From the NCBI GenBank assembly GCA_902563555.1, contig CACEXM010000003.1, forward strand, positions 1-64,000: 64,000 bases of DNA. Reading direction: 5' to 3'. The first letter of the stretch is position 1. Each line of letters opens with the position of its first letter. The DNA comes from an uncultured Pelagibacteraceae bacterium. Its GTDB lineage: Bacteria; Pseudomonadota; Alphaproteobacteria; Pelagibacterales; Pelagibacteraceae. A model generated the notes under the pieces. It did not search any database. It was not told the DNA's origin and worked only from the letters and a program-made list of their open reading frames with translations. The position numbers and the translations under genes were made by a program. Below are positions 29,638 through 43,196 of this stretch, one piece after another.

Positions 29638-30432
29638 CTAATTATTTTCTATTCGGTCCATTTCTTTAAGTTCGACTTCTAACTTATCTAATTCCTCACC
29701 ACCTGCCATCATGCTTAAAAGTTTTTCTCTAGATATATCTTTTTTTTGAAATGTCCCCATACTTTTTCCTCGATTTAAAACTGTAAAACTATTTCCAACA
29801 GGATAAGCATGATGAACGTTGTGTGTTATTAAAATTACAGCTAAACCTTGTGATGCTGCTTTAACAATATATTTCAGGACCATTGAAGCTTGATGTACAC
29901 CTAATGCTGATGTTGGTTCATCTAATACCAAAACTTTTGCCCCAAAATAAATTGCTCTAGAAATAGCGAGACATTGTCTTTCACCTCCAGACATCGTACC
30001 GACGGCTTGTGATGGGTCTCTCACATCAATACCTATTTGTCCCATTCTTTCTGCAGCTATAGTGTTTGCTTTTTCAATATCAAAAGTTTTTAAAAAAGGT
30101 AAACCTTTTTGTGGCTCTCTGCCCATAAAAAAATTTCTAGTTACACTCATAAGGGAAACTAATGCTAAATCTTGATAAACAGTACCTATCCCAATATCCA
30201 AAGCATCTCGTGGTGAGTCAAAAACTATTTTTTGATCTTCAAAAATAATTTCACCTTCATCAGGCTTATGAACGCCTGCTAAAGTTTTTATCAAAGTAGA
30301 TTTTCCAGCTCCATTGTCACCAAGTAAGCACATTATTTCGCCTTTTTTAAGTTTCATGGTGACGTCTTTTAAAGCAATTACTTTACCAAAAAATTTACTT
30401 ATATTATTGAATTGAACTAAATATTCAGACAT
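29638..30432 (-). CDS. CUT2-type sugar/polyol ABC transporter, ATP-binding protein
   Basis: A 264-residue single-domain ATPase. Walker [18 protein letters not shown], signature [15 protein letters not shown], Walker [14 protein letters not shown], switch [12 protein letters not shown]. It resembles FrcA-type single-domain ATPases rather than the duplicated RbsA/MglA form. It shares one base with the permease gene and forms a transporter with the next two genes. Linked iol-like genes point to myo-inositol or another cyclitol as substrate. Confidence 0.93.
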
Positions 30433-31559
30433 TACTTAGTCTCCGTAACTTTTTTTCTAATATAATTATTGAATACTACTGCAATTAACATCATTGCGCC
30501 TAAAAAAACCTTAAACCAATCAGTATCCACATCTGTATAAAAAATTCCCATTGATACAGTGCCAAAAATAATAGCGCCCAATGCTGCTCCGATGGCAGAG
30601 CCATAACCTCCAGTCAAAAGACAACCGCCAACCACGGCAGCTGCTATTGCTTCCAATTCTTTTAAAGTTCCTCTCATAGTATCTGCAGAACCTGCATCTA
30701 AAACTTGAATACAAGCAAATATTGTCGATGCTACAGCTGTTCCAATAAATAGACTTATTTTTACTCTTCCAACAGGTACACCAACATTTGTAGCACCAAC
30801 TTTATCTCCACCTGATGCAAATATCCAATTTCCATATCTAGTTTTCATAAGTATCCAAGTCGCAAATAATGTAAGGGCAATAAACCATATTACTGATGGT
30901 GGAATACCTGTAGCTAATGGTGTACCGTCAGTTCTCAGTGCAATTAATTTCATCGATCCTAGCCATTTGAATAACCATTGAAAAGTATCTGTTGCGAACA
31001 ACCAAGCGATTGGATCATCCTCTATTAAAACTCTTAACCCGGGTACTTGAGTTCTTCCTGTAATTAATCTCGTAATAGCCAAAGTTGCCCCTCTTAAAAC
31101 GAACAACATTGCAAGAGTTACTATGAAGGATGGAAGACCAGTTTTTACTACCATTATACCATTGAAATAACCAATTAGTACTGCCATAGCAAAAGCAAAA
31201 ATAATACTCGTCCATAAAGGCCAGCCCCAATAAATTGCAGGTATAGCGATACAGATTCCTGCAAAACCAATCATTGATCCAATTGATAAATCAAACTCTC
31301 CACCGATCATTAACATTGCAGCAGCAATAGCAATAATTCCTAAATTAGCCGAAACATCTAAAAAATTTAATGTCCCATAAGCGCTAAACATTCCAGTGTC
31401 ACCAGCAACTATTCCAAAAAAAATAAAAACTAAAATTGAGCCACCCAAAGCACCAAGCTCTGGTCTGTTTAATAAAACTCTAAGAGGTGAAATTTTTTTA
31501 AGTCTTTCATCTTGTCCACTATCTTTTTTAGATTGAATACTCTCTGATTTTACAGACAT
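30432..31559 (-). CDS. CUT2-type sugar/polyol ABC transporter, permease
   Basis: A 375-residue RbsC/FrcC-like inner-membrane permease with about ten hydrophobic segments. Family marks: [24 protein letters not shown], the [18 protein letters not shown] loop and [21 protein letters not shown] roughly 40-residue Lys/Ser-rich N-terminus precedes the first segment. It is separated from the binding-protein gene by a strong stem-loop that probably lowers its expression relative to that gene. Confidence 0.93.
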
Positions 31560-31590
31560 AAAAAAATTATAATTTAAAGATGATTAAAAA

Positions 31591-31620
31591 AAAGGCCTGA
31601 CTAACATTAGTCAGGCCTTT
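31591..31620 (-). terminator. Intrinsic terminator/attenuator between binding-protein and permease genes
   Basis: A 13-bp perfect stem (AAAGGCCTGACTA and its complement, 4-base loop). On the minus strand it is followed directly by a run of eight or more T, a textbook intrinsic terminator, placed 11 bp after the binding-protein stop and before the permease start. It would let most transcripts end after the abundant binding protein. Confidence 0.88.
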
Positions 31621-31631
31621 AATTCATATTT

Positions 31632-32555
31632 TTATCTATAACCTTGAGCTGCCCATTTAATTACTTTAGACGCATTGTCAGGAGTTACAAACCCAGGTCC
31701 AGTCATTACTACACCTGCTGGCATTGTTCCCCATCTCATATATTGTCCAAAGATAGCTATTGGTAAATATCCTTGTAGATATTGCTGTTGGTCAATTAAA
31801 AACTCTACTTTTCCTGCAGCAGCAGCTTTTAACATATTTGGAGACATATCAAATGTTCCTAATCTTACAGAACCAACTTTTCCAGCTGACTCAAGTGCTT
31901 TCAATGCTGCTTCACCAGACAATCCAGCACCTAAAGTTAGAATAGTGTCATAGCCACCACCTAATTTTGCAGCAACAGCTTTTTGAATTTCTGTTGGGTC
32001 ATTTGAAGTACCTAAAATATCAACAGATCCACCAAAACCTTTTTTGAAACCAGCACATCTTCTGTCAAGTGCAACGTTTCCTACCTCATGGTTAACACAT
32101 AATGCTTTTTTTCCACCAGCGGCTTTCATTTTTTGTCCACCACCTACACCTGCTTCAAACTCAGTTTGTCCAACGTGTGCACTAATTCCTAAAGATGCAT
32201 AATCATCAGATCCAGAGTTCATTGATATTACAGGAATACCAGCAGCAATCGCAGCTTTAACTGATTTTCCTAAAGCAGCAGCATCTGGTAATGTTATCAC
32301 AATACCTTTCGGTTTTTGTGATACAGCATTATCAATTAATTTTGCCATTTCTACCATGTCGAAAGTAGCTGGTGCTGTGTATTTGCAAGACACTCCCATG
32401 TCTTTACATCCAGCATCAACTCCATTTTTAGCAACTGACCAGAAAGGATCATTTGCTTGACCATGAGAAACCACAATTATATCCACAGCTAAAGCAGATA
32501 CAGACATCATTGCCCATGCAGCTAAAGCTAATATAAAGTTTTTTATTGTTTTCAT
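31632..32555 (-). CDS. Periplasmic sugar/polyol-binding protein of CUT2 ABC transporter
   Basis: A 307-residue periplasmic-binding-protein-I-like protein (Peripla_BP_4). A signal peptide covers about residues 1-23 (NFILALAAWAMMSVSALA), then DIIVVSHGQANDPFWSVAKN, VITLPDAAALGKSVKAAIAA, GIPVISMNSGSDDY and FLIDQQQYLQGYLPIAIF. It delivers substrate to the permease; by context a myo-inositol-type ligand (compare IbpA of Caulobacter) is likely but unproven. It follows the iolG-like gene on the same strand across a 101-bp gap in which no strong promoter was identified. Confidence 0.92.
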   Translation of the reverse strand: MKTIKNFILALAAWAMMSVSALAVDIIVVSHGQANDPFWSVAKNGVDAGCKDMGVSCKYTAPATFDMVEMAKLIDNAVSQKPKGIVITLPDAAALGKSVKAAIAAGIPVISMNSGSDDYASLGISAHVGQTEFEAGVGGGQKMKAAGGKKALCVNHEVGNVALDRRCAGFKKGFGGSVDILGTSNDPTEIQKAVAAKLGGGYDTILTLGAGLSGEAALKALESAGKVGSVRLGTFDMSPNMLKAAAAGKVEFLIDQQQYLQGYLPIAIFGQYMRWGTMPAGVVMTGPGFVTPDNASKVIKWAAQGYR

Positions 32556-32656
32556 TATTTTCCTCTAATTAAAGTTAACTTTTAAAAATAAAATCTAATC
32601 AAAATATTATTTGGTTGTAAAGCAGACAGGTTGCATTCTACTTATGGTTGATTCAA

Positions 32657-33658
32657 TTAAAGATTAAGTTTTTCAAACTTTTTTGATTGTAAAGATTTTT
32701 GAGCTGCATTCGCAATTATCAGAGCTTTTCTTCCCTCTTCAAATCCTGCAAGAGGTTGAATTTTCTTTCTTATAAATTTTGCAAAATCCTTTAGTTGATT
32801 TTTATAAGCATCTTTATACCTCTCAATAAAAAAATTAAGCAAAGGAGATTTGTTCGAAGTTGATTGTGCAGAATATAAAGATGTCTCGTTTTGTCTTTTA
32901 TTTTCTGAAATTAACATACCTTTTGATCCAAATAATTCTATTCTTTGATCATAACCGAAACTACAATGTCTGGAATTAGTTATTATGCACTGAACACCAG
33001 CTTTAGATCTAATTATGGTAGATGCTAATTCAAAATCTTTTATTTTATCAAATCTTTTGTCTGATATGTTGCTACCAGAAGCTATTATTTTCGCAGGCTC
33101 ATCATTACCAAGGTAGAATCTGACAAGATCAAAATCATGGATCATCATATCTCTAAAAATACCACCAGATTCTTTTAGATATTTCATAGTTGGTGGGGCA
33201 GGATCACGACTAGTGATAATAATTTTTTCTAATTTACCTATTTTTCCACTTAGTAATTGTTTTCTTAAATTATTGTGTGTTGGATCATAACGTCTATTAA
33301 AACCTAATTGTATTTTTGGATTTAATCTTTTAATTTTTTTTTTGCAGGACTCAATTTTCTTAATACTTAAATCCAGTGGTTTTTCACAAAAGATAATTTT
33401 TTTATTCTTAACACCATCTAAAATAAATTTAATATGTGTTGATGTTGTTGAGGCAATAAAAATAGCTTTTATATCCTTATCTGTATAAGCCAAAGATGGA
33501 TTGTTTATAGCTTTTGTTTTTAATGTTTTTGAATACTTTTTAGATAATTTTTGTTCAATGTCATAAATATATTTAAGATTAAAATCTTTACTACGCATTA
33601 AATTTTTTCCATGCATAATACCAATTCTACCAAGTCCAAATAAAGCTATATCAATCAT
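32657..33658 (-). CDS. iolG: Gfo/Idh/MocA oxidoreductase, inositol 2-dehydrogenase-like
   Basis: A 333-residue NAD(P)-dependent dehydrogenase. N-terminal Rossmann motif ALFGLGRIGIMHGKNL, cofactor-side CEKPLDL with the conserved Lys, QLGFNRRYDPTHNNL, and a catalytic stretch GGIFRDMMIHDFDLVRF (D/H pair) typical of IolG/IdhA. It would oxidise myo-inositol to 2-keto-myo-inositol. Support comes from linkage with iolE- and iolD-like genes and a polyol transporter. It is divergent from iolE with 44 bp between starts. Confidence 0.85.
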   Translation of the reverse strand: MIDIALFGLGRIGIMHGKNLMRSKDFNLKYIYDIEQKLSKKYSKTLKTKAINNPSLAYTDKDIKAIFIASTTSTHIKFILDGVKNKKIIFCEKPLDLSIKKIESCKKKIKRLNPKIQLGFNRRYDPTHNNLRKQLLSGKIGKLEKIIITSRDPAPPTMKYLKESGGIFRDMMIHDFDLVRFYLGNDEPAKIIASGSNISDKRFDKIKDFELASTIIRSKAGVQCIITNSRHCSFGYDQRIELFGSKGMLISENKRQNETSLYSAQSTSNKSPLLNFFIERYKDAYKNQLKDFAKFIRKKIQPLAGFEEGRKALIIANAAQKSLQSKKFEKLNL

Positions 33659-33702
33659 TTAAAATTTGTATTAAAATAATAACTTAACTAAAAAAATTTC
33701 TT

Positions 33703-34605
33703 ATGTCAGTAAAATTAGGAGTTGCACCCATTGCATGGAGTAATGATGACATGCCTGAGTTAGGTGGTGACACCTCATTAGAACAATGTTTAAAAGAAGC
33801 CAATGAAGCAGGCTATATAGGCATAGAGTCTGGTGGAAAATTTCCAAAGAAATCTTCGGAATTAATTCCAAAATTAGATCAATTTAATCTTAAACTTTGC
33901 TCAGGATGGTATGGTGCTAATCTAAGAAAAAATTCTGTTGAGGAAGAAAAAAAATCCATTCAAGAACAACTAGATTTATTTAAAGATTGTGATGCACCTT
34001 GTATAGTTTTTGCAGAAGTTTCTGGCTCTATTCAAGGAAATCCTAATAGAAAATTATCAACTCGGCCTCAAATGGAAAGGGACGAATGGCAGAAGTTTTG
34101 TGAAAAAATTTCTGAACTAGGAAAATATTTAGAGGATGAAGGAATGCCTTTGGCATATCATCATCATATGGGAACAGTAATTGAAACTCAAAAAGATACT
34201 GAAAGACTTATAGAAAATACTCATGAAAGTGTAAAATTAACATTAGATACAGGACACATGTTATTTGCAAAAGGGGACTCAAACTACATATTACAAAATT
34301 ATCATGAAAGAATTTTGCACGTCCATTGTAAAGATATAAGAAAACAAGTTCTTGAAAAATCTTTAAAAGAGGATTTAAGTTTTAGAGGTGCTTTTTTAGA
34401 GGGTGCGTTTACAGTACCAGGAGATGGTTGTATTGATTATCAACCTTTATTTAATGTATTAAAAAATAATAATTATTCAGGATGGTTGGTGGTTGAGGCA
34501 GAGCAGGATCCGGCAAAAGCAAATCCGTTAGAGTATGCGAAAATTGGTTATGATTATCTTGCAGATACATTGAAAAAATCTGAAATTGAAATTTATAAAA
34601 ACTGA
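33703..34605 (+). CDS. iolE: Inosose dehydratase IolE
   Basis: A 300-residue AP-endonuclease-2-fold enzyme that dehydrates 2-keto-myo-inositol. Motifs: VAPIAWSNDDMPELGGDTSLEQCL, GYIGIESGGKFPK, LCSGWYGANLR, MPLAYHHHMGTVIET, LTLDTGHM, ILHVHCKDIR and VPGDGCIDYQPLF, all typical of IolE, with the metal-binding Glu/Asp/His set. Its 3' end abuts the stop of the minus-strand gene at 34606 with no spacer. Confidence 0.94.
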   Translation: MSVKLGVAPIAWSNDDMPELGGDTSLEQCLKEANEAGYIGIESGGKFPKKSSELIPKLDQFNLKLCSGWYGANLRKNSVEEEKKSIQEQLDLFKDCDAPCIVFAEVSGSIQGNPNRKLSTRPQMERDEWQKFCEKISELGKYLEDEGMPLAYHHHMGTVIETQKDTERLIENTHESVKLTLDTGHMLFAKGDSNYILQNYHERILHVHCKDIRKQVLEKSLKEDLSFRGAFLEGAFTVPGDGCIDYQPLFNVLKNNNYSGWLVVEAEQDPAKANPLEYAKIGYDYLADTLKKSEIEIYKN

Positions 34606-35106
34606 TTATCTATAGAGTGAAGTTAGTTCATTATTTCCAGCAGCAACACATGGAGATTTAAAACAAGTACCAACAACCCATTCAGATCCAGGATCAGGTA
34701 AAAAATTTGATGACATCACAAATATAACACCCATCTCAACTGATTGCCCCGCCTTACCTTCTGCTTTAATTCTAGGATCAGGATCAGTTTTTACTTTAGT
34801 ATCCTCTGAAAAAGGATTCTCTATATTAAGATTTTTGTTTATATAATTCACAACTTTAGATGAAGACCATTCGCCATTGCATGGATCACCCCAAACAGTC
34901 AATTTACCTTCATCATTATTCCCGCAATTATTTATTTCTCCATTGATAAAATCGACTACTTTCTTATGATTTTCTTTGACTAAGTTAGCTTTTGCTTCAA
35001 CTGCGGGCCTTGTACTTGCGGTCCAAATCAACATCCCAACCACATATACTAATGATAACAATACTAATGCTTCTAATAGTCCAAAATTTTTGAAATTTAT
35101 TTGCAT
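34606..35106 (-). CDS. Hypothetical single-pass membrane protein, pilin-like N-terminus
   Basis: A 166-residue protein with one N-terminal hydrophobic helix (FGLLEALVLLSLVYVVGMLI) that carries a Glu early in the helix, followed by an amphipathic helix and a Cys-containing polar domain (four Cys in total). This layout resembles type IV (pseudo)pilins, but the GxxxE spacing is not canonical. I do not recognise the family. It sits oddly inside the polyol-catabolism cluster, 2 bp from the hydroxyacid dehydrogenase gene and probably in its operon. Confidence 0.7.
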   Translation of the reverse strand: MQINFKNFGLLEALVLLSLVYVVGMLIWTASTRPAVEAKANLVKENHKKVVDFINGEINNCGNNDEGKLTVWGDPCNGEWSSSKVVNYINKNLNIENPFSEDTKVKTDPDPRIKAEGKAGQSVEMGVIFVMSSNFLPDPGSEWVVGTCFKSPCVAAGNNELTSLYR

Positions 35107-35108
35107 AA

Positions 35109-36074
35109 TTAAAGTTTAATTATTTTTGATTTGTCTAATTTTTTATCAAAAAAATCAATTATATTTTGTATTGTTTCTTTTCCCATTCTTATCATGCATT
35201 CCTCAGTAAATGCAGCGGTATGAGGACTTAAAAAAACTTTATTGTTTTTTAGCAGAGGATTATCCTCTTTAGGCGGTTCTGTTTCAAAAACATCTAAACC
35301 TGCCCCAAATATAAGACTTTCATTTAATGCTTTATCTAAGTCATTCTCATTAATCATTCCACCTCTTGCAGCATTAATAATTATACAATTTTTCCTCATT
35401 GTTTTAATTAAGTCATAATTAATAATATTTTTCGTTTTTTCATTAAGAGGCATATGTAAAGAAATGGCATCCATTGATTTTACTGCTTCTGTAAGATCTT
35501 CAACTTTTTTTCCACCCAATTCCTCAATAATTTCTTTTGAAACAAATGGATCATAAACAAAAACATTCATTTCAAATCCTTTGCATCTTCTAATTAAAGA
35601 TTGACCAATTCTACCAAATCCAGCAATTAAAATATTTTTTTTCCAAAGTTCAATTGTTTTTGGAAGTTTGTTTCTATTAGAAAAATTTCCTGTTTTAACA
35701 GCCTCATCATACATGTTTTTTCTCTTTGATATATTGAGCAACATAAACATAACATGTTCTGCCACCGCAACAGCATTTGCTGTAGCCGTAATTGCCAAGG
35801 TGATATTTTTTTCTTTAGAAGACTTGAGATCAATATTGTCATACCCAACGCCATGGCGAGATATAATCTTAAGTTTTTTTGATATATTGATTAATTCGTT
35901 AGATAAATTTGCTGTTCTAATTGATAGACCATCACACTCCAAAATTTTTTGTTTAATATCTTTGTCATCTATATTTTCAATAATCTCATAATCATAATTT
36001 GGGTTATTCTTTATAAGATCTATCCCCGCTTTATGAATAGATTGAATTATCAAAATTTTTTTTTTATATGACAC
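35109..36074 (-). CDS. D-isomer-specific 2-hydroxyacid dehydrogenase
   Basis: A 321-residue NAD-dependent oxidoreductase of the D-3-phosphoglycerate-dehydrogenase/glyoxylate-reductase family. The NAD fold shows ILIAGFGRIGQSLIRRC, and the catalytic residues lie in IINAARGGMINENDL (Arg), VFETEPP (Glu) and LSPHTAAFTEECMIRM (His). No ACT domain is present, so serine synthesis is unlikely. It follows the HpcH/HpaI aldolase by 6 bp and could reduce or oxidise a 2-keto/2-hydroxy acid made in that pathway. The exact substrate is unknown. Confidence 0.9.
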   Translation of the reverse strand: MSYKKKILIIQSIHKAGIDLIKNNPNYDYEIIENIDDKDIKQKILECDGLSIRTANLSNELINISKKLKIISRHGVGYDNIDLKSSKEKNITLAITATANAVAVAEHVMFMLLNISKRKNMYDEAVKTGNFSNRNKLPKTIELWKKNILIAGFGRIGQSLIRRCKGFEMNVFVYDPFVSKEIIEELGGKKVEDLTEAVKSMDAISLHMPLNEKTKNIINYDLIKTMRKNCIIINAARGGMINENDLDKALNESLIFGAGLDVFETEPPKEDNPLLKNNKVFLSPHTAAFTEECMIRMGKETIQNIIDFFDKKLDKSKIIKL

Positions 36075-36080
36075 TTAAAT

Positions 36081-36872
36081 TTAGTAAGCTTTAGAGTCTT
36101 CTTTTGATTTGATTGATTTTAATTTAGATACAGCGTCTTTTGCACCCGCACTCATATACCTTTGATCGGATCCAATGGTTACTAAATTAAATCCTAAATT
36201 AAGCATTTTTTTAGCATACTCTGGGCTCGCATTATGAATACCTGCAAAGATGTTGTTTTTTTTTGCATGTTCTAAGATATTCAAAATCTCTTTATATGTC
36301 CCTGAATTTTCAGGTTTATCAAATGAAGGTTTTTCACCCAAGGCTAAACTTAAATCTGCAGGTCCAATATAAATTCCATCTAAGCCCGGTGTTATCATAA
36401 TCTCATCTAGTTTATCTATTGCCTCTTTAGTCTCTATCATTGCTAGTTTTAAAATTTCATTATTCGCATGATCTCCATAATCACTTCCACCATATATTAA
36501 ACCTCTAATTGGGCCATAACTTCTATAACCTTTCGGTGGATATAAGCATGCTTGAACAAATCTTTCAGCTTCAGATTTATTACTCACCATTGGGCAAATT
36601 ACTCCATAGCATCCGGCATCTAGAATTTTCATGATCTGCCCAGGTTCATTCCAATTCACTCTTGCAAGTGGGGTTACATCAGTAGTTGATATAGCTTGCA
36701 ACATCTGTAATGCAGAAGGGTAATCTATAACACCATGTTGCATATCAATCGTAATAGAGTCCCACCCCTGATTTGACATTACCTCTGCAGAAAAAGAACT
36801 AGGAATTTGTAGCCATCCATTAATTATTGGCTCACCTTCTCTCATCATCTTTTTTATTTTATTTAGTTTCAT
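36081..36872 (-). CDS. HpcH/HpaI-family class II aldolase
   Basis: A 263-residue TIM-barrel aldolase that splits or forms 2-keto-4-hydroxy acids using pyruvate and a divalent metal. Motifs: GWLQIPSSFSAEVMSNQGWD, ITIDMQHGVIDY (catalytic His), PLARVNWNEPGQIMKILDAG, GYRSYGPIRG, AMIETKEAI (metal Glu), GLDGIYIGPADLSLALG (metal Asp). It is 1 bp from the upstream SSADH-like gene. In this cluster it might replace the iolJ aldolase step, releasing pyruvate and an aldehyde for the neighbouring dehydrogenase; this is inference. Confidence 0.91.
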   Translation of the reverse strand: MKLNKIKKMMREGEPIINGWLQIPSSFSAEVMSNQGWDSITIDMQHGVIDYPSALQMLQAISTTDVTPLARVNWNEPGQIMKILDAGCYGVICPMVSNKSEAERFVQACLYPPKGYRSYGPIRGLIYGGSDYGDHANNEILKLAMIETKEAIDKLDEIMITPGLDGIYIGPADLSLALGEKPSFDKPENSGTYKEILNILEHAKKNNIFAGIHNASPEYAKKMLNLGFNLVTIGSDQRYMSAGAKDAVSKLKSIKSKEDSKAY

Positions 36873-36873
36873 T

Positions 36874-38316
36874 TTAAGATTTTAAACCAAGGTGAGTGTA
36901 CTTTATATTTAGATAATCTTTAATAGCCATTGAACCACCTTCACGTCCATATCCAGTTTGTTTAATTCCTCCAAAAGGAGCCTCGGCTATTGCAACTGCA
37001 GGAGTATTTACTGCAACAGTACCAGTTTCCATTAATTCTGAAGCCTTGTGTGCTTTATCCATAGAATTTGTATAAATATAACTACATAATCCTAAATCAT
37101 TATTATTAGCTCTCTCAACCACTTCATCAAAAGTTTTAAATGACAACATTGGAACCAATGGACCAAATGGTTCTTGTTTCATTATTGTAAAATTGTCCTT
37201 TACATTGTCAAAAACTGTTGGCTCATAAAAATATCCTTTGTTAAAACCTTGAGGTCTTTTTCCACCCAATAAAACTTTTGCTCCTTCCTTTTTAGTTGTT
37301 TCAACTAATTCTTCGATTTCTCCTAATCTTTTTGCAGTTGTTAAAGGACCTAATTGAACTCCTTCATCTAAACCATTTCCAATTTTTAATTTTTTTGTTC
37401 TTTCAATAAACGCATTAATGAACTCGTCTTTTTTATTTTCTTGGATATAAAATCTGTTAGGTGAAATACAAACTTGACCATTATTTCTAAATTTTGCAGT
37501 AATTGCCATATCTGCAACTTTATTAATATCAACATCATCAAAAACTATAAAAGGTGAGTGTCCACTAAGCTCCATTGTGACTCTTTGAACTTTGTCAGCA
37601 GCCTTTTTTAAGATTAATTTACCAACTCTTGTTGATCCAGTAATTGAAACCTTTTTAATAATATCAGACTCTAACAACTCATTTGAAATACTTTCAGGAT
37701 CTCCTGATAATAAGTTTACAACTCCAGGAGGGACTCCCGCTTCTTTACAAATATCTACTAACTCCATTACTGTTCCTGGAGTAATTACATCAGGCTTACA
37801 AATTACTGAACACCCAGCAGCTAACGCTGTTGAAATTTTTCTTGCTGCTAGAATTAAAGGAAAATTCCATGGCACTAAAGCTGCTACAACTCCAACTGGC
37901 TGATAATAAACATGAACTCTGGTATCTGGAAATCGACTTTCGACTGTTTGTCCATAAATTCTTTTTGTTTCTTCAGCATTCCACTCAAAAATATCAGCAG
38001 CTCCACCAGTTTCGCCAATTCCCTCTGCTAAAGGTTTTCCAACTTCAATCGTTAACCATTTTGCTAAAACATCTTGTTTTTTTCTTAAAAGATCAGCAAT
38101 TTTTCTAATAATATATGATCTCTGCCAAGGTAAAGTGTTTTTCCAAACTTCCAAACCTTTCTCTGCAGATTTAAGAGCTTTTTGAACATCTGCTGAAGAC
38201 GCTTTAGACGCTTGGCCAATAATTTCTTCCGTAGCAGGATTTATAACATCGTAAGTTTCTTTTTTTTCCGCTTGTTGCCACTTACCATCAATGAACTGCC
38301 CAAATTTACTATACAT
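36874..38316 (-). CDS. Aldehyde dehydrogenase, succinate-semialdehyde-dehydrogenase-like
   Basis: A 480-residue NAD(P)-dependent aldehyde dehydrogenase from ATG 38316 (FGQFIDGKWQQAEKKETYDV). The frame stays open to 38427, but that part overlaps the divergent iolD start and does not look like the family, so the shorter start is preferred. Key stretches: VAALVPWNFPLILAARKIS, VTMELSGHSPFIVFDDVDI (Glu), FRNNGQVCISPNRF (Cys), EPFGPLVPMLSF. It lacks methylmalonate-semialdehyde-dehydrogenase features and is GabD-like. It leads an operon with the aldolase and hydroxyacid dehydrogenase. Confidence 0.91.
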   Translation of the reverse strand: MYSKFGQFIDGKWQQAEKKETYDVINPATEEIIGQASKASSADVQKALKSAEKGLEVWKNTLPWQRSYIIRKIADLLRKKQDVLAKWLTIEVGKPLAEGIGETGGAADIFEWNAEETKRIYGQTVESRFPDTRVHVYYQPVGVVAALVPWNFPLILAARKISTALAAGCSVICKPDVITPGTVMELVDICKEAGVPPGVVNLLSGDPESISNELLESDIIKKVSITGSTRVGKLILKKAADKVQRVTMELSGHSPFIVFDDVDINKVADMAITAKFRNNGQVCISPNRFYIQENKKDEFINAFIERTKKLKIGNGLDEGVQLGPLTTAKRLGEIEELVETTKKEGAKVLLGGKRPQGFNKGYFYEPTVFDNVKDNFTIMKQEPFGPLVPMLSFKTFDEVVERANNNDLGLCSYIYTNSMDKAHKASELMETGTVAVNTPAVAIAEAPFGGIKQTGYGREGGSMAIKDYLNIKYTHLGLKS

Positions 38317-38370
38317 AATTTTTATTTTATGGTTAATTAAGCGAAATTTTAAGAGAATATATCTACAATT

Positions 38371-40215
38371 ATGAAAAAAATAAAGCTTACATGTGCTCAT
38401 GCAATTGTAAAGTTCCTGACTTCTCAAAAAATTCTTATCGATGGTAAAAAAGAACCTTTATTCGCTGGTGCTTTTGGAATATTTGGTCATGGTAATGTAG
38501 CTTGTTTAGGACAAGCTTTAGAGGAAAATAAAGATAAACTTCCAACTTATAGAGGTCATCATGAGCAAAACATGGCTTTAACAGGAATTGCTTACGCTAG
38601 AGCAAAAAGAAGAAAACAAGTATTTGTAGCAACAAGTTCTGTAGGCCCTGGTTCTACAAATATGGTAACAGCTGCAGCAGTTGCGATGAGTAATAGACTG
38701 CCAATTTTATTTCTTCCAGGTGATACTTACGCAAACAGGATGCCTGATCCAGTTTTACAACAAGTAGAACATTTTAATAATCCAGGAATTACTCAAAATG
38801 ATGCTTTTAAACCAGTTACAAAATATTTTGATAGAATAACCAGACCAGAACAAATTTTACAAACATTTCCTCAAGCTGTACAAGTTTTATTAGATCCAGC
38901 TGATTGTGGTCCAGTATGCATATCTTTATGTCAGGATATACAAGGAGAAATTTTTGATTATCCTGAGGATTTTTTTAAAGAAAAAATCCATAATATACGA
39001 AGACCAAGACCTGATGATTTTCAAATTAAAGAGGCAGCTGAAAAAATCAAAAAATCAAAAAATCCAATCATAATTTCTGGTGGAGGTGTTTTTTACTCAG
39101 ATGCAATGGAGGAACTTTCTACTTTTGCAGTTAAACACAATATACCTGTAACACAAACTGTAATGGGTTATTCTTCTATGAAAAGAGATCATTCTCATTT
39201 TTTAGGACCTATTGGAGGTTTAGGAGGAAAAGCAGCAAACAACTTTGCAAAGAAAACTGATTTAGCGATTGCTATTGGAACTAAGTTAGGAGATTTTACA
39301 ACTGGGTCATGGTCCAATTTTGAAAATCCAAATTTTTCATTAGTATCAATTAACGTTGCAAGATTTGATGCTAGTAAGCATATGGCACAATCAATTATTG
39401 GAGATGCAAAAGTTTCTCTAAATGAACTATCACAAGCTCTGGGTGATTGGAAAGCATCCGAGGAATGGCATAAAAAATCTAGAGATGAACTTAAATCTTG
39501 GAATGAATATGTTGATAAAGAAAGTGGACCGACTAATCAAAAACTCCCAAGTTATGCTCATGCAGTTGGTGCAATTTATAGAAACTCTGACCCAAGTGAT
39601 ATCGCTGTCACCGCAGCCGGAGGTTTGGTAGGTGAAGTTGTTCAAATTTGGAGACCAAGAGAGCTTAATACTCATGAAACAGAGTGGGGCTTTAGTTGTA
39701 TGAGTTATGAAATTTCTGGAGCTTTAGGAATTAAAATGGCCAACCCAAACAAAGAAGTTATCACATTTGTAGGTGATGGATCGTATTTACTTTATAATTC
39801 AGATATATATTCATCTGTAATAACTAATAATAAACTAATTGTAATTGTTTGTGATAATGGTGGTCACGCTGTCATTAATAGACTTCAATTATTTAAAGGT
39901 GGAAAAGAATTTAATTGTTTGTTTGAGAGTTCAAATGTTTCCAATTTGGTAAAAGTAAATTTTGCAAAACATGCAGAAAGTATGGGGGCAAAGTCTGAAG
40001 AGGTAAGCTCTATCAGTGAATTAGAGGAAGCTTTCAAAAGAGCTAAGAAATCAAAAGTGACTTACGTTATTTCAATCAAAACTCATTCGTATCAATGGCT
40101 TGAAGGATCAGCTTATTGGGAAAGTCCAACTTTAGAAATTCCCAAAACTAAAGAAAACGAAAAAGCTCTAAAATTACACAAAGAAGGTAAAGCAAAACAA
40201 AGACAGGGAGTATAA
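38371..40215 (+). CDS. iolD: 3D-(3,5/4)-trihydroxycyclohexane-1,2-dione hydrolase
   Basis: A 614-residue ThDP-dependent enzyme that opens the cyclohexanedione ring made by IolE, giving 5-deoxyglucuronate. Motifs: LTCAHAIVKFLTSQKI, FGIFGHGNVACLGQAL, YRGHHEQNMALTGIAYA (catalytic Glu region), SSVGPGSTNMVTAAA, the IolD-type LPGDTYANRMPDPVLQQVE, and the ThDP motif EVITFVGDGSYLLYNSDIYS. Thiamine dependence links it to the thiS/thiG and thiV genes in this window. It leads the plus-strand operon iolD - Gfo/Idh/MocA - ROK - FAH. Confidence 0.95.
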   Translation: MKKIKLTCAHAIVKFLTSQKILIDGKKEPLFAGAFGIFGHGNVACLGQALEENKDKLPTYRGHHEQNMALTGIAYARAKRRKQVFVATSSVGPGSTNMVTAAAVAMSNRLPILFLPGDTYANRMPDPVLQQVEHFNNPGITQNDAFKPVTKYFDRITRPEQILQTFPQAVQVLLDPADCGPVCISLCQDIQGEIFDYPEDFFKEKIHNIRRPRPDDFQIKEAAEKIKKSKNPIIISGGGVFYSDAMEELSTFAVKHNIPVTQTVMGYSSMKRDHSHFLGPIGGLGGKAANNFAKKTDLAIAIGTKLGDFTTGSWSNFENPNFSLVSINVARFDASKHMAQSIIGDAKVSLNELSQALGDWKASEEWHKKSRDELKSWNEYVDKESGPTNQKLPSYAHAVGAIYRNSDPSDIAVTAAGGLVGEVVQIWRPRELNTHETEWGFSCMSYEISGALGIKMANPNKEVITFVGDGSYLLYNSDIYSSVITNNKLIVIVCDNGGHAVINRLQLFKGGKEFNCLFESSNVSNLVKVNFAKHAESMGAKSEEVSSISELEEAFKRAKKSKVTYVISIKTHSYQWLEGSAYWESPTLEIPKTKENEKALKLHKEGKAKQRQGV

Positions 40216-40220
40216 CCCTA

Positions 40221-41381
40221 ATGAGTAAAGTATTTAAAGTTGGCTTAATTGGTTGTGGTCATATCGCAGAAACATATTTCAGAGCTCACAAATATTTCAA
40301 AAATTTTAAAATCATTAAATGCGCAGATGTTAAAGAAAAAGCAGCAAAGAAATGTGCTAAAATTTATAAAATTAAATCAGTTTCGGTAAATAACTTACTC
40401 AAAGATAAACAGGTTGAAATAATATTAAATCTAACCCCTCCAAAAGTTCATTATCAAATTGCAAAAAAGTCTTTGTTAAATGGAAAACATGTATACTCAG
40501 AAAAACCACTAGCAATAAATTTAAAAGACGGAAAAGAATTACTTAAGCTCTCAAAAAAAAAAAAATTATACTTAGGAAATGCTCCAGATACTTTTCTTGG
40601 AGGAGGCAATCAAAAATCGAAGGAATTATTAGAAGGTAAAAGTATCGGTAAAGTAAATTTAGGTAATGCGATTTTTGCTTTTCCAGGGGTTCAATCTTAT
40701 CATCCTGACCCAGAACCATGGTTTGCAAAAAAAGAAGGTGGTCCAGTAATTGATATGGGACCTTATTACCTCACAGCATTAGTAAATTTATTGGGTCCAG
40801 CAAAAGAGGTAAAAGCAGCAAGTTTAATGAAAGGTTCACGATTTAGAACAATTGGTATTGGTCCTAAAAAGGGAAAAAGAATTAAGGTAGAATGTCCAAC
40901 GACATATTTTACAACAATCATATTTGAAAATGGAAGCATAATCAGACTCACTTTATCTTTTGATGTTATAGCTCATCAAAGAAATCATATTGAACTTTAT
41001 GGAACCAAAGGTTCAATGATTGTACCAGATCCTAATATGTTCGGTGGTTCAGTTTATGTATGTAAAAAATTAGGAAGCCCATGGAAAGAATTTAAAACAA
41101 ATAAAATGCCACTAGGAAAAATTAATATTAGATCGCAAAGTTCTAGAGCAAATGAGTCACCTACTAATGCTAATTACAGAGGAGTTGGTCTTGCAGAAAT
41201 GGCTTATTGTATTGATAAAAAAAAGATACATAGATGCAATGGAGAAGTATCTTTGCATGTTCTTGACTTGATACAATCAACTATGCAATCTGCTAAAACA
41301 AATAAACCAATTAGACTTAGTACAACATGCAAAATTCCAAAACTTTTTATTAATAAAGAAATAAATAAATTAATGAGATAG
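40221..41381 (+). CDS. Gfo/Idh/MocA-family oxidoreductase
   Basis: A 386-residue NAD(P)-dependent dehydrogenase with an N-terminal Rossmann motif (KVGLIGCGHIAETYFRAH), VYSEKPLAINLKDGKEL with the cofactor Lys, and a catalytic region EGGPVIDMGPYYLTALVNLLGP in which the D-x-G/Y pattern replaces the D-x3-H seen in IolG. It is longer than the iolG-like protein at 32657 and distinct from it, perhaps acting on another inositol isomer, an inosose or a sugar acid. It lies 5 bp after iolD and 3 bp before the ROK gene. Confidence 0.9.
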   Translation: MSKVFKVGLIGCGHIAETYFRAHKYFKNFKIIKCADVKEKAAKKCAKIYKIKSVSVNNLLKDKQVEIILNLTPPKVHYQIAKKSLLNGKHVYSEKPLAINLKDGKELLKLSKKKKLYLGNAPDTFLGGGNQKSKELLEGKSIGKVNLGNAIFAFPGVQSYHPDPEPWFAKKEGGPVIDMGPYYLTALVNLLGPAKEVKAASLMKGSRFRTIGIGPKKGKRIKVECPTTYFTTIIFENGSIIRLTLSFDVIAHQRNHIELYGTKGSMIVPDPNMFGGSVYVCKKLGSPWKEFKTNKMPLGKINIRSQSSRANESPTNANYRGVGLAEMAYCIDKKKIHRCNGEVSLHVLDLIQSTMQSAKTNKPIRLSTTCKIPKLFINKEINKLMR

Positions 41382-41384
41382 AAT

Positions 41385-42287
41385 ATGCAGATTGGTATTG
41401 ATCTTGGGGCAAGTAAAATAGAGTATGTGTTATTAGATGATGTTGGCAATGAGCATCATAGAGAAAGAACCGAAGTTCCAAAAAATTACAAAGATACATT
41501 ATCAATAATAAAAAAAATAGTTATCGAACTTGAGCGTAAAGCAGGAAAAGAATTACCAGTGGGTGTATGTCATCCAGGGATTCATTCTATTCAAACAGGA
41601 CTAGTTAAAAATGCACCCAATTCTTTTTGGATAAATGGCAAACCTTTACAAAGAGATTTACGGAGTGAGATTGGCAAAGAAATTTATTGTGAAAATGATG
41701 CTAACTGTTTTGCTTTATCAGAAGCAATAGATGGTTCTGGAAAACATTATAAAATAGTTTTTGGGGTAATTCTTGGATCTGGTGTTGGAGGTGGTTTAGT
41801 TATAGATAAACGAATTGTCAATGGACCTAATGGGATTACTGGAGAATGGGGGCACAATCAAATACCGAGCGCTTGTATTGAAGGTGTTCAAATAAAAAAA
41901 ACGAATTTAAGAGCTGGGGAAATAGAAAACTTTGTTGCGGGTATAGGTATTTCTAAAGCGTTCAAAAATGAGTTTAAAAAGGATTTATCTGCCCAAAAGA
42001 TATTTGAGATGCATAGAAAACTTGATTTAGATGCAGAAAAATTAATTGATAAATATAAAGATCAACTCGCAATGTCTTTAGCCACTGTTGTTAATATAAT
42101 TGATCCAGATGTGTTTGTTTTCGGGGGTGGGGTATCTAATGAAATAAATTTTTTAGATGAAATTAAACAAAAAATGAAAAAATTTGTTGCAGGGGGTGAA
42201 TTTGAGGGGACTTTTTTAAAACCTAAATTTGGTGATGCAAGCGGTGTAAGGGGTGCAGCACGTTTAGCAAGAACCACAAATTATTGA
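41385..42287 (+). CDS. ROK-family sugar kinase-like protein lacking the zinc cysteines
   Basis: A 300-residue ASKHA-fold protein: N-terminal phosphate loop IGIDLGASKIEYVLL (DLGAS for the usual DIGGT), VGVCHPGIHS, catalytic YCENDANCFALSEA, GVILGSGVGGGLVID and C-terminal DPDVFVFGGGVS. The region GITGEWGHNQIPSACIEG keeps the Zn-ligand His, but the usual CxCGxxGC is absent. It sits in the cyclitol operon where canonical clusters have the IolC kinase, so it may phosphorylate a keto-deoxy acid or a free sugar; loss of zinc ligands makes the activity uncertain. Confidence 0.88.
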   Translation: MQIGIDLGASKIEYVLLDDVGNEHHRERTEVPKNYKDTLSIIKKIVIELERKAGKELPVGVCHPGIHSIQTGLVKNAPNSFWINGKPLQRDLRSEIGKEIYCENDANCFALSEAIDGSGKHYKIVFGVILGSGVGGGLVIDKRIVNGPNGITGEWGHNQIPSACIEGVQIKKTNLRAGEIENFVAGIGISKAFKNEFKKDLSAQKIFEMHRKLDLDAEKLIDKYKDQLAMSLATVVNIIDPDVFVFGGGVSNEINFLDEIKQKMKKFVAGGEFEGTFLKPKFGDASGVRGAARLARTTNY

Positions 42288-42347
42288 CTAGTGAAGAAAA
42301 TTCATTTACTACAAATGAGCTAATTATTAAAGTCTAGGAAGTGAAAT

Positions 42348-43196
42348 ATGAAATTGTGTAGAATAGGTAGTGTTGGAGAAGAAAAACCAGCAATCATAGA
42401 TAGTGAAAACAATTACCGAGATTTGTCATCAATAATTAATGATTTTAACCCTGACACATTGAATTTTGATACATTGGAGAAAATAAAAAAAACGGATATT
42501 TCAAGTTTACCAAAGCTTGATTCAAGTTCTAGAATAGGTGCATGCGTCTCTAATCCATCAAAATTTATTGGTATTGGTTTGAATTTCAAAGATCATGCTG
42601 AAGAACAAAATTTACCAATTCCAAAAGAGCCAATTATTTTCTCAAAGTTTACAAGTTGTATCACAGGACCAAATGATCCAATAGTTGTACCAAAAGGATC
42701 TAATCATACTGACTGGGAAGTTGAAATTGGTTTTGTGATAGGAAAAAAAGCTATCAATGTCAGTGTTGAAAACGCCTTAGATCATGTTCTAGGCTTTTTT
42801 CTTGTAAATGATGTGAGTGAAAGAGATTTCCAAAAAAATAGAGGTTTAACTTGGGATAAAGGAAAAGGTTTTGATACATTTGGTCCGATAGGCCCATTCG
42901 TAGTTACTAAAGATGAATTACCAGACTATCAAAATTTAGATATGTTTTTAGATGTCAATGGGAAAAGGATGCAAACCGGAAATACAAGTAAAATGATTTT
43001 TAATATCAAAAATTTAGTTTCTTACATGAGCTCATGTATGAGCTTACATCCTGGTGACATTTGTTGCACGGGAACTCCACCTGGTGTTGGTGAAAATATG
43101 AAACCACCTGTTTTCTTAAAAGGCGGTGAAGAAGTCGTTTTGGGAATAGACAAGCTAGGTCAACAAAAACATAAAGTCATTCCTTATAAAGATTAA
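42348..43196 (+). CDS. FAH-family hydrolase, 2,4-diketo-3-deoxy-sugar-acid type
   Basis: A 282-residue fumarylacetoacetate-hydrolase-fold enzyme. Motifs: KFIGIGLNFKDHAEEQNLPI, PIIFSKFTSCITGPNDPIVV, DWEVEIGFVIGKKA (metal Glu), VNDVSERDFQKNRGLTWDKG and GDICCTGTPPGVG. The RGLTWDKGKGFDTFGPIGPF segment is typical of the subgroup that cleaves 2,4-diketo-3-deoxy-L-fuconate/rhamnonate to pyruvate and a hydroxyacid. It follows the ROK gene by 60 bp with a GGAAG Shine-Dalgarno. It suggests a non-phosphorylated sugar-acid route next to the iol genes. Confidence 0.9.
   Translation: MKLCRIGSVGEEKPAIIDSENNYRDLSSIINDFNPDTLNFDTLEKIKKTDISSLPKLDSSSRIGACVSNPSKFIGIGLNFKDHAEEQNLPIPKEPIIFSKFTSCITGPNDPIVVPKGSNHTDWEVEIGFVIGKKAINVSVENALDHVLGFFLVNDVSERDFQKNRGLTWDKGKGFDTFGPIGPFVVTKDELPDYQNLDMFLDVNGKRMQTGNTSKMIFNIKNLVSYMSSCMSLHPGDICCTGTPPGVGENMKPPVFLKGGEEVVLGIDKLGQQKHKVIPYKD

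Follow-up and report, generated by a model that had tools for sequence, protein, structure and literature searches.

Results

The locus and its core genes

The first 64,000 nucleotides of contig CACEXM010000003.1 (assembly GCA_902563555.1; forward strand, called the window throughout), from an uncultured Pelagibacteraceae bacterium of the order Pelagibacterales, carry between positions 29638 and 43196 a group of genes for the breakdown of inositol or a related cyclitol, whose upper half appears canonical and whose lower half appears, as far as we have seen, to be new. The open reading frames (ORFs) of this interval were assigned by their matches to Pfam and NCBIfam profiles, with the curated NCBI cut-offs. 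The upper half consists of iolG, the inositol 2-dehydrogenase (32657..33658, minus strand), which barely passes its cut-off (TIGR04380, 356 bits for a cut-off of 355), iolE, the inosose dehydratase (33703..34605, plus strand; TIGR04379, 410 bits, cut-off 290), and iolD, the trihydroxycyclohexane-1,2-dione acylhydrolase (38371..40215, plus strand; TIGR04377, 807 bits, cut-off 715). With them lie a D-2-hydroxyacid dehydrogenase (2HADH) of the phosphoglycerate dehydrogenase (PGDH)/glyoxylate-reductase type (35109..36074, minus strand; PF02826/PF00389, with TIGR01327 at 268 bits, below its cut-off), an HpcH/HpaI class II aldolase nearest to the hydroxyketoacid-aldolase type (HpcH; 36081..36872, minus strand; PF03328), an NAD(P)-dependent aldehyde dehydrogenase (ALDH) resembling succinate-semialdehyde dehydrogenase (SSADH; 36874..38316, minus strand; TIGR01780, 484 bits, below the cut-off of 646), and a second Gfo/Idh/MocA oxidoreductase (Gfo2; 40221..41381, plus strand; PF01408/PF22725). 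For the ALDH, 38316 is the probable start, since the alignment to a homologue begins there; the start of its longest ORF, at 38427, would overlap iolD.

An earlier reading of the letters of this DNA (the original prediction) had listed these genes, along with a transporter, a ROK-family protein and an FAH-type hydrolase described below, had pointed to the lack of iolB, iolC, iolJ and iolA, and had proposed a variant route downstream of IolD. Each gene that it named was found in its place by the Pfam and NCBIfam searches, and none of the four missing genes is among the ORFs of at least 100 amino acids in the stretch.

Canonical lower-pathway genes in the genomes of the order

The source genome of the window (934 kb in 25 contigs, 78% complete) has no match to the IolB profile (TIGR04378, 0/1), and the KduI/IolB family (PF04962) has none in 41 genomes, this one included, nor in any of 68 genomes of the order that carry iolD. 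The controls, B. subtilis, Caulobacter and C. glutamicum, were positive in each of these searches. The window has a G+C content of 29.9%, and the genomes of its relatives within the order measure 0.5–1.5 Mb. The 68 iolD-positive genomes, 67 of which are at least 90% complete, were screened for IolB, IolC and IolA. IolC (TIGR04382) does not exceed its cut-off of 300 bits in any of them, the best scores, of 110 bits, belonging to PfkB paralogues. IolA, the methylmalonate-semialdehyde dehydrogenase MmsA (TIGR01722), is present above its cut-off and with E ≤ 1e-150 in 63 of the 68, and the window's own, 78% complete genome gave no match at E ≤ 1e-150. The isomerase and the kinase are absent from the tested genomes, whilst most of them possess the enzyme for the malonic-semialdehyde step, and the missing iolA is true of the locus, not of the lineage. 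The original prediction had counted intact canonical genes elsewhere in the genome as evidence against a variant route. IolB did not turn up, nor did IolC above its cut-off (0/68 each). iolA did, in 63 of the 68 relatives, yet this leaves the variant route unrefuted: it, too, would be expected to yield malonic semialdehyde.

Genes that travel with iolD within the order

Among 397 genomes of the order, iolD is present in 160 (about 40%) and the window's HpcH in 162 (E ≤ 1e-60). Both genes occur together in 153 genomes, iolD alone in 7, HpcH alone in 9 and neither in 228 (Fisher p 2e-88, with kinship left out of account), a co-occurrence across the order of the kind that had been put forward as a check. 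Twenty iolD loci of the order were then sampled as stretches of about 20 kb, in which a gene lying farther off counts as missing. ALDH, iolD and Gfo2 are present in all 20, HpcH in 19, iolE and 2HADH in 18 each and iolG in 11; less frequent are the transporter (10), a cassette of ribose-type ATP-binding cassette (ABC) transporter, RbsD and ribokinase (10), ROK (8), a dehydratase of the MR/MLE family (8) and FAH (4). The recurrence of ALDH, iolD and Gfo2 in all 20 loci and of HpcH in 19 is beyond chance, and HpcH, ALDH, 2HADH and Gfo2 emerge as the core of the variant set, as had been supposed. The same cannot be said of ROK and FAH, which had been taken as parts of the pathway: they are accessory, because only 8 and 4 of the 20 loci have them, and the 14 plasmid regions viewed (see below) showed no sign of either.

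The same gene set outside the order

Of 385 genomes drawn from across the Alphaproteobacteria, 56 carry iolD; with G000 and G042 set aside, 22 of the remaining 54 gave no match to IolB, even at a threshold of 1e-10. Forty class-wide loci were fetched, and two of these, L065 and L070, show 2HADH-HpcH(-ALDH)-iolG divergent from iolD. A scan of the species-genome collection with the HpcH proteins of these two gave 54 loci, 28 with iolD in the locus and 26 with no iolD within the stretch (one locus, L097, is the same contig as L065). All 28 iolD-bearing loci have 2HADH, 27 a Gfo gene (Gfo70), 23 ALDH and 21 iolE, and their hosts include Acetobacter, Komagataeibacter, Ruegeria, Gemmobacter, Loktanella, Boseongicola, Devosia and Oricola. 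Together with L070 they make up the 29 alternative-operon loci (and genomes) referred to from here on. Clustering of the ORFs of these 29 loci brought out a MurR/RpiR regulator in 20, a PRK06198-type short-chain dehydrogenase/reductase (SDR) in 19, an ABC ATPase in 13 and iolG in 10; apart from these and the operon genes already named, no other family reaches 10 loci, and neither a sugar-acid dehydratase nor a kinase is among the families that do.

The set is also found on plasmids, where the HpcH queries matched 52 and 42 records, and 14 regions were chosen by hand among the matches listed. By similarity, iolE, iolD, ALDH, HpcH and 2HADH are all present in eight of the 14: six in Alphaproteobacteria (Rhizobium leguminosarum, R. 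daejeonense, Paracoccus alcaliphilus, Acidiphilium multivorum, Jiella and Qingshengfaniella) and two in Gammaproteobacteria (Pantoea sp. At-9b and Klebsiella aerogenes). A Shinella plasmid has the full set minus iolD, and the other five regions are not iol-linked. The plasmid genes bear the product names iolE, iolD, NAD-dependent succinate-semialdehyde dehydrogenase, aldolase/citrate lyase family protein, hydroxyacid dehydrogenase and Gfo/Idh/MocA oxidoreductase. The operon-bearing plasmids of Acidiphilium (L157), Jiella (L161), K. aerogenes (L164) and R. daejeonense (L168) were typed as conjugative.

The window, L065/L097, the named loci and the plasmids all have ALDH, HpcH and 2HADH in the same sequence, running divergently from iolD. 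The window proteins share 33–55% identity with their counterparts in these distant genomes, and the 2HADH 33–38% with the 2HADHs at the same gene order elsewhere. In a tree of IolD, the order and the alternative-operon loci share one side of a supported branch; the same side holds 19 other loci of mixed context, some of them from genomes with weak IolB matches.

Other iolD loci of the class look different. In three genomes of 1.4–1.6 Mb from two other alphaproteobacterial families (L057, L058, L059), iolD is 68–70% identical to that of the window and has a 2HADH gene divergently beside it, with no HpcH in the stretch and weak IolB-like matches elsewhere in the genomes; in L059, FAH-like (51%) and Gfo2-like (52%) genes are close by as well. 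A further 21 iolD loci (L068, L069, L071–L075, L077–L089, L094), some of them very short, show no HpcH set in the stretch and come from genomes with no IolB match at 1e-10. Six of the loci in which iolD has no adjoining HpcH were listed ORF by ORF (L080, L082, L083, L086, L087 and L095), ORF calling being poor in GC-rich loci; the genome of L095 has only a broken, weak IolB match.

The aldolase

The HpcH_HpaI domain of the window aldolase (PF03328) scores 111 bits. The closest solved relative of the protein is SwHKA (6r62/7o5i; EC 4.1.2.52) of Sphingomonas (Rhizorhabdus) wittichii RW1, with 188 bits, followed by HpaI with 139 and GarL with 115. Its AlphaFold (AF2) model (predicted local distance difference test, pLDDT, 89) is also best matched by 6r62, the complex of SwHKA with hydroxypyruvate (Z 32.9, root-mean-square deviation (rmsd) 2.4, 247 aligned residues, 36% identity), the Z of HpaI being only 1.4 lower. 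The accessible part of the published account of SwHKA names as active-site residues Q43, H44, R69, P92, S116, M143, E145, D171 and F210 (PMC10099721). Apart from position 210, all of these are unchanged in 74 of 74 HpcH homologs, the window included, so that the catalytic His/Arg (H44, R69) and the metal-binding Glu/Asp (E145, D171) are conserved in the window aldolase. These homologs comprise 20 of the order, 34 labelled as linked to iol operons, five of which have no iolD in the locus (L111, L117, L120, L122, L123), and 20 orphans. GarL and YfaU carry E43, G116, Q143 and L210.

At position 210, where SwHKA has Phe instead of the conserved Leu, the window and 73 of the 74 homologs have His, and one has Gln. 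This His210 was considered as a signature of hydroxypyruvate and rejected, the same residue being present in three non-iol homologs (L158, L163, L167); it is a subfamily trait, by which the choice between pyruvate and hydroxypyruvate as donor is not settled. In two of these loci, L158 and L163, the HpcH gene of the same subfamily lies directly behind MR/MLE genes, with amino-acid-type ABC transporters and no iol genes, and probably belongs to a different pathway. Neither did the HpcH tree yield proof of a single ancestor of the operon, for which it had been tried: the HpcH proteins of the order form a clade of their own.

The oxidoreductases

The closest solved relative of the ALDH is E. coli GabD (3jz4, 415 bits), and its GQ.C motif is present in all 20 loci of the order. 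The 2HADH has a PGDH structure as nearest solved relative, and the best match of Gfo2 to a solved structure reaches only 53 bits. Gfo2 has D..Y where iolG has D..H, again in 20 of 20 loci; C1-oxidising members of the Gfo family often carry Tyr at this position. Orthology of Gfo2 with the Gfo of the other operons was rejected, as the two share at most 27% identity and most of the latter have D..H. Gfo2 sits behind iolD, whereas in the other operons the Gfo70-type gene sits behind 2HADH.

Transporter and accessory genes

At the left end of the locus lies a probable CUT2 cyclitol transporter, accessory with its presence in 10 of the 20 loci. It consists of a single-domain ABC ATPase (29638..30432, minus strand; PF00005, best NCBIfam match YtfR, below cut-off), a permease (30432..31559, minus strand; best NCBIfam match GguB, below cut-off) and a periplasmic substrate-binding protein of the Peripla_BP_4 family (31632..32555, minus strand), which scores 316 bits against the rhizopine-binding model NF052284 and does not reach its cut-off of 420. 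Among solved structures, the binding protein is closest to 4ru1, both by sequence and by fold (Z 33.7, the next entry having 31.0; rmsd 2.9, 283 aligned residues, 34% identity), which we take to be a complex with myo-inositol. It is also 39–41% identical to the binding proteins adjoining the operon in L114, L116, L118, L132 and L133. Between iolE and 2HADH, a 166-amino-acid protein with a hydrophobic N-terminal stretch and no Pfam family (34606..35106, minus strand) is present in the same ten of the 20 loci as the transporter.

Behind Gfo2 follow the fructokinase-like ROK-family sugar kinase (41385..42287, plus strand; PF00480, with PRK09557 at 281 bits, below the cut-off of 443) and the FAH-family hydrolase (FAA_hydrolase; 42348..43196, plus strand), nearest to the model of 2,4-didehydro-3-deoxy-L-rhamnonate hydrolase (NF053535, 392 bits, below the cut-off of 500). 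The iolD locus of the order resembles a site of cassette exchange (L033, L038–L040, L042–L047, L050). All of these loci but L045 have the ribose-type ABC/RbsD/ribokinase set behind Gfo2, and all but L043 and L044 have ketopantoate-reductase, DUF1907 and dioxygenase genes near HpcH.

Discussion

The results of this work make it quite likely that the genes linked to iolD in the Pelagibacterales encode an alternative lower pathway for inositol or one of its isomers. The variant route originally predicted after IolD holds its ground as regards the missing IolB and IolC and the core of HpcH, ALDH, 2HADH and Gfo2, and gives way as regards ROK and FAH, whose part in it is not supported. From the gene content, the absence of IolB and IolC in the tested genomes, the co-occurrence, the gene order kept in distant genomes and the intact active-site residues of the aldolase we infer the rest, that is, every substrate, the order of the steps and the assignment of each oxidoreductase to its step.

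IolG, IolE and IolD would, by what is known of their families, produce 5-deoxyglucuronate by the standard route. This compound is OHC-CHOH-CHOH-CHOH-CH2-COOH, and an HpcH-type aldolase requires a 2-oxo-4-hydroxy acid. Because of this requirement, an acid at C1 and a ketone at C2 would be the shortest route open to the conserved enzymes. The six-carbon chain would then be oxidised unphosphorylated, in place of the isomerase, the kinase and the aldolase forming dihydroxyacetone phosphate (IolB, IolC and IolJ): the ALDH would oxidise C1 to give the diacid 5-deoxyglucarate, Gfo2 or the 2HADH would turn the C2 hydroxyl into a ketone, and the HpcH metal aldolase would cut between C3 and C4, releasing hydroxypyruvate and malonic semialdehyde. 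The former may be reduced by the 2HADH or transaminated, and the latter may be converted to acetyl-CoA by the unlinked MmsA. Such a scheme requires no kinase, and no dehydratase beyond IolE, and neither is among the recurrent families; the lack of a shared sugar-acid dehydratase in the operons points to hydroxypyruvate. We put this kinase-free scheme forward as a tentative one, plausible on the gene content and somewhat short of probable.

Several observations weigh against it. IolB is above its cut-off in 17 of the 29 alternative-operon genomes, weak only in five, and without a match in the remaining seven (four Komagataeibacter, two Acetobacter and G762). The alternative set stands alone in the order and in IolB-free acetic-acid bacteria, and elsewhere it often coexists with the canonical route, which may mean that it serves another stereoisomer or another condition. 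MmsA is above its cut-off in 23 of the 29 and was not found at 1e-100 in five, the four Komagataeibacter and G762; because of this, malonic semialdehyde would need another outlet there. The glycerate kinase PF13660 has no match in 47 genomes of the order, whilst 27 of the 29 other alternative-operon genomes are positive, which makes glycerate an unlikely exit in the order by way of this kinase and leaves to hydroxypyruvate transamination to serine or some other kinase. ALDH is absent from five of the 28 loci and from L070, and loci of this kind argue for some exchange of roles among ALDH, Gfo2 and 2HADH. Within the window, Gfo70 finds its best matches in Gfo2 (25% identity) and iolG (23%), and the PRK06198-type SDR beside iolE in the other operons has no match above 40 bits; two of the order's 20 sampled loci match it, L045 (43%, close to iolG/iolE) and, weakly, L033 (28%). 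In a tree with SH-aLRT support only and long branches, the HpcH proteins of the order lie closer to Phenylobacterium homologs with no iol link than to the clade of the iol operons, and His210 recurs in homologs whose neighbours are MR/MLE dehydratases or glucarate genes. Finally, on the R. daejeonense plasmid (L168, 10003–13437) a pyruvate carboxylase gene lies inside the operon, between Gfo and the RpiR regulator, and hints at pyruvate as product.

Pyruvate, which the original prediction had named as a possible end product, would indeed be formed if 5-deoxyglucarate were first dehydrated to 4-hydroxy-2-oxoadipate, by a dehydratase of the enolase superfamily or IlvD type encoded elsewhere, and the aldolase then released pyruvate and malonic semialdehyde. 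Besides the pyruvate carboxylase just mentioned, this is favoured by the MR/MLE dehydratase (RhmD-like; PRK15440, 220 bits, below the cut-off of 393) that 8 of the 20 loci of the order have at a distance of up to some 10 kb from iolD and by the HpcH genes of the same subfamily directly behind MR/MLE genes on Agrobacterium and Mesorhizobium plasmids. We nevertheless hold it to be unlikely, with no sugar-acid dehydratase among the families of at least 10 of the 29 loci, no MR/MLE relative in the window (IlvD types were not searched) and an aldolase nearer in sequence to SwHKA than to HpaI or GarL, even if the gap in fold Z to HpaI is small. The coexistence with IolB in 17 of 29 genomes would fit a different substrate, such as scyllo- or chiro-inositol or an inosamine/rhizopine, from which ring opening would give a stereoisomer of 5-deoxyglucuronate that the canonical enzymes cannot use. 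An iolC gene three genes from iolE in the operon of P. alcaliphilus, two iolE and several Gfo genes around that of Acidiphilium, and a binding protein nearest to the rhizopine model, below cut-off as it is, fit with this. In the 68 iolD-positive genomes of the order and the seven others, however, the operon would be the sole route for inositol because they have no IolB match, and 4ru1, to which the binding protein is closest among solved structures, presumably has myo-inositol bound. A special stereoisomer is thus a possibility to be kept in mind, on balance a doubtful one, and it and the kinase-free scheme are not mutually exclusive.

A canonical route run by unrelated enzymes would have a ROK or PfkB paralogue for IolC, an isomerase of some unknown kind for IolB, an ordinary class II aldolase for IolJ and MmsA as IolA, with HpcH, ALDH and 2HADH serving something else. 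Candidates for the kinase do exist (ROK in 8 of the 20 loci, a ribokinase-like PfkB near iolD in 10, and the PfkB paralogues, whose scores with the IolC model reach 110 bits), and MmsA is there in 63 of the 68 genomes. What makes this quite improbable is the lack of any KduI/IolB match in all 68, the lack of ROK in 12 of the 20 fetched stretches and in the 14 viewed plasmid regions, and HpcH and ALDH being nearly inseparable from iolD, in a gene order kept in distant genomes. A different distribution of roles within the same set of enzymes would have Gfo2 as an aldose 1-dehydrogenase giving a lactone, the 2HADH making the 2-oxo acid and the ALDH oxidising malonic semialdehyde. The likeness of the ALDH to SSADH and GabD would suit such a role, as would the D..Y of Gfo2. 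The ALDH-less loci L129, L131, L132, L133 and L135 are in MmsA-bearing genomes, the four Komagataeibacter lacking MmsA retain the ALDH, and the ALDH-less L070 has a fuconolactonase-like gene (182 bits, below the cut-off of 400) and SDR-like genes beside the operon. In G762, the genome of L070, however, ALDH is missing from the locus and MmsA gave no match, and Gfo2 is no orthologue of the Gfo of the other operons, so that we regard the exchanged roles as rather unlikely.

The kinase-free scheme differs in its parts from the systems to which it can be compared. With the canonical pathway of B. subtilis and Caulobacter the order shares IolG, IolE and IolD above the curated cut-offs, the probable cyclitol transporter and, in most relatives, MmsA/IolA; it departs from it in lacking IolB, and IolC above cut-off, and in the linkage of HpcH, the SSADH-like ALDH, 2HADH and Gfo2 to iolD. 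The inositol pathway of Thermotoga maritima, which is not known to use IolD, is another departure after inosose, whereas the window locus has genuine iolE and iolD genes. The aldolase shares with SwHKA the eight metal- and substrate-site residues and is closest to it by sequence and fold, with 36% identity over the model and His in place of Phe at 210; instead of iol genes, the SwHKA gene has an SDR, an alpha/beta-hydrolase and a cupin as neighbours. The catabolism of D-glucarate and galactarate (GarD/GudD, GarL, GarR, GarK) follows the same logic of a diacid, an HpcH-family aldolase, C3 products and a reductase, but no sugar-acid dehydratase is among the recurrent genes here, and GarL is unlike the window aldolase at residues 43, 116, 143 and 210. 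The lower homoprotocatechuate pathway, too, pairs an HpaI-type aldolase with an SSADH-like dehydrogenase; the window pair is linked to iolD and iolE rather than to aromatic-degradation genes, and both its members are below the HpaI and SSADH cut-offs.

No description of this operon was found in the titles and abstract openings of those open-access papers that the searches listed, subscription papers being mostly outside their coverage. Genome surveys use iolBCDE to score the use of inositol. According to the accessible part of a 2022 survey of inositol clusters, at least three of iolBCDE were demanded (PMC9430895); by this definition, clusters with iolD and iolE only would be excluded, except where a neighbouring PfkB gene passed the survey's limit of 1e-10 as iolC. 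In the accessible part of a study of coastal SAR11 genomes, a sugar ABC cassette is labelled frcABC, for fructose (PMC12636525), and the operon may explain that cassette if its transporter is the one found in the window. The word inositol is absent from the accessible parts of PMC12636525, PMC7318151 and PMC10030771.

In its widest form, the proposal would be that about 40% of the genomes (160/397) of what is probably among the ocean's commonest bacterial orders, and a number of plasmids as well, hold a phosphorylation-free pathway, in which two oxidations and a split to hydroxypyruvate and malonic semialdehyde are the natural role of the SwHKA-type aldolase; taken as a whole, this is a speculation that we consider less than likely. 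It does offer enzymes that can be assayed, namely an aldolase type for which no natural substrate was found stated, and the dehydrogenase set of culturable Acetobacter and Komagataeibacter in which no IolB was found. If true, ATP would be spared and serine/glycine metabolism fed, and some SAR11-like and acetic-acid bacteria now scored as non-users may use inositol.

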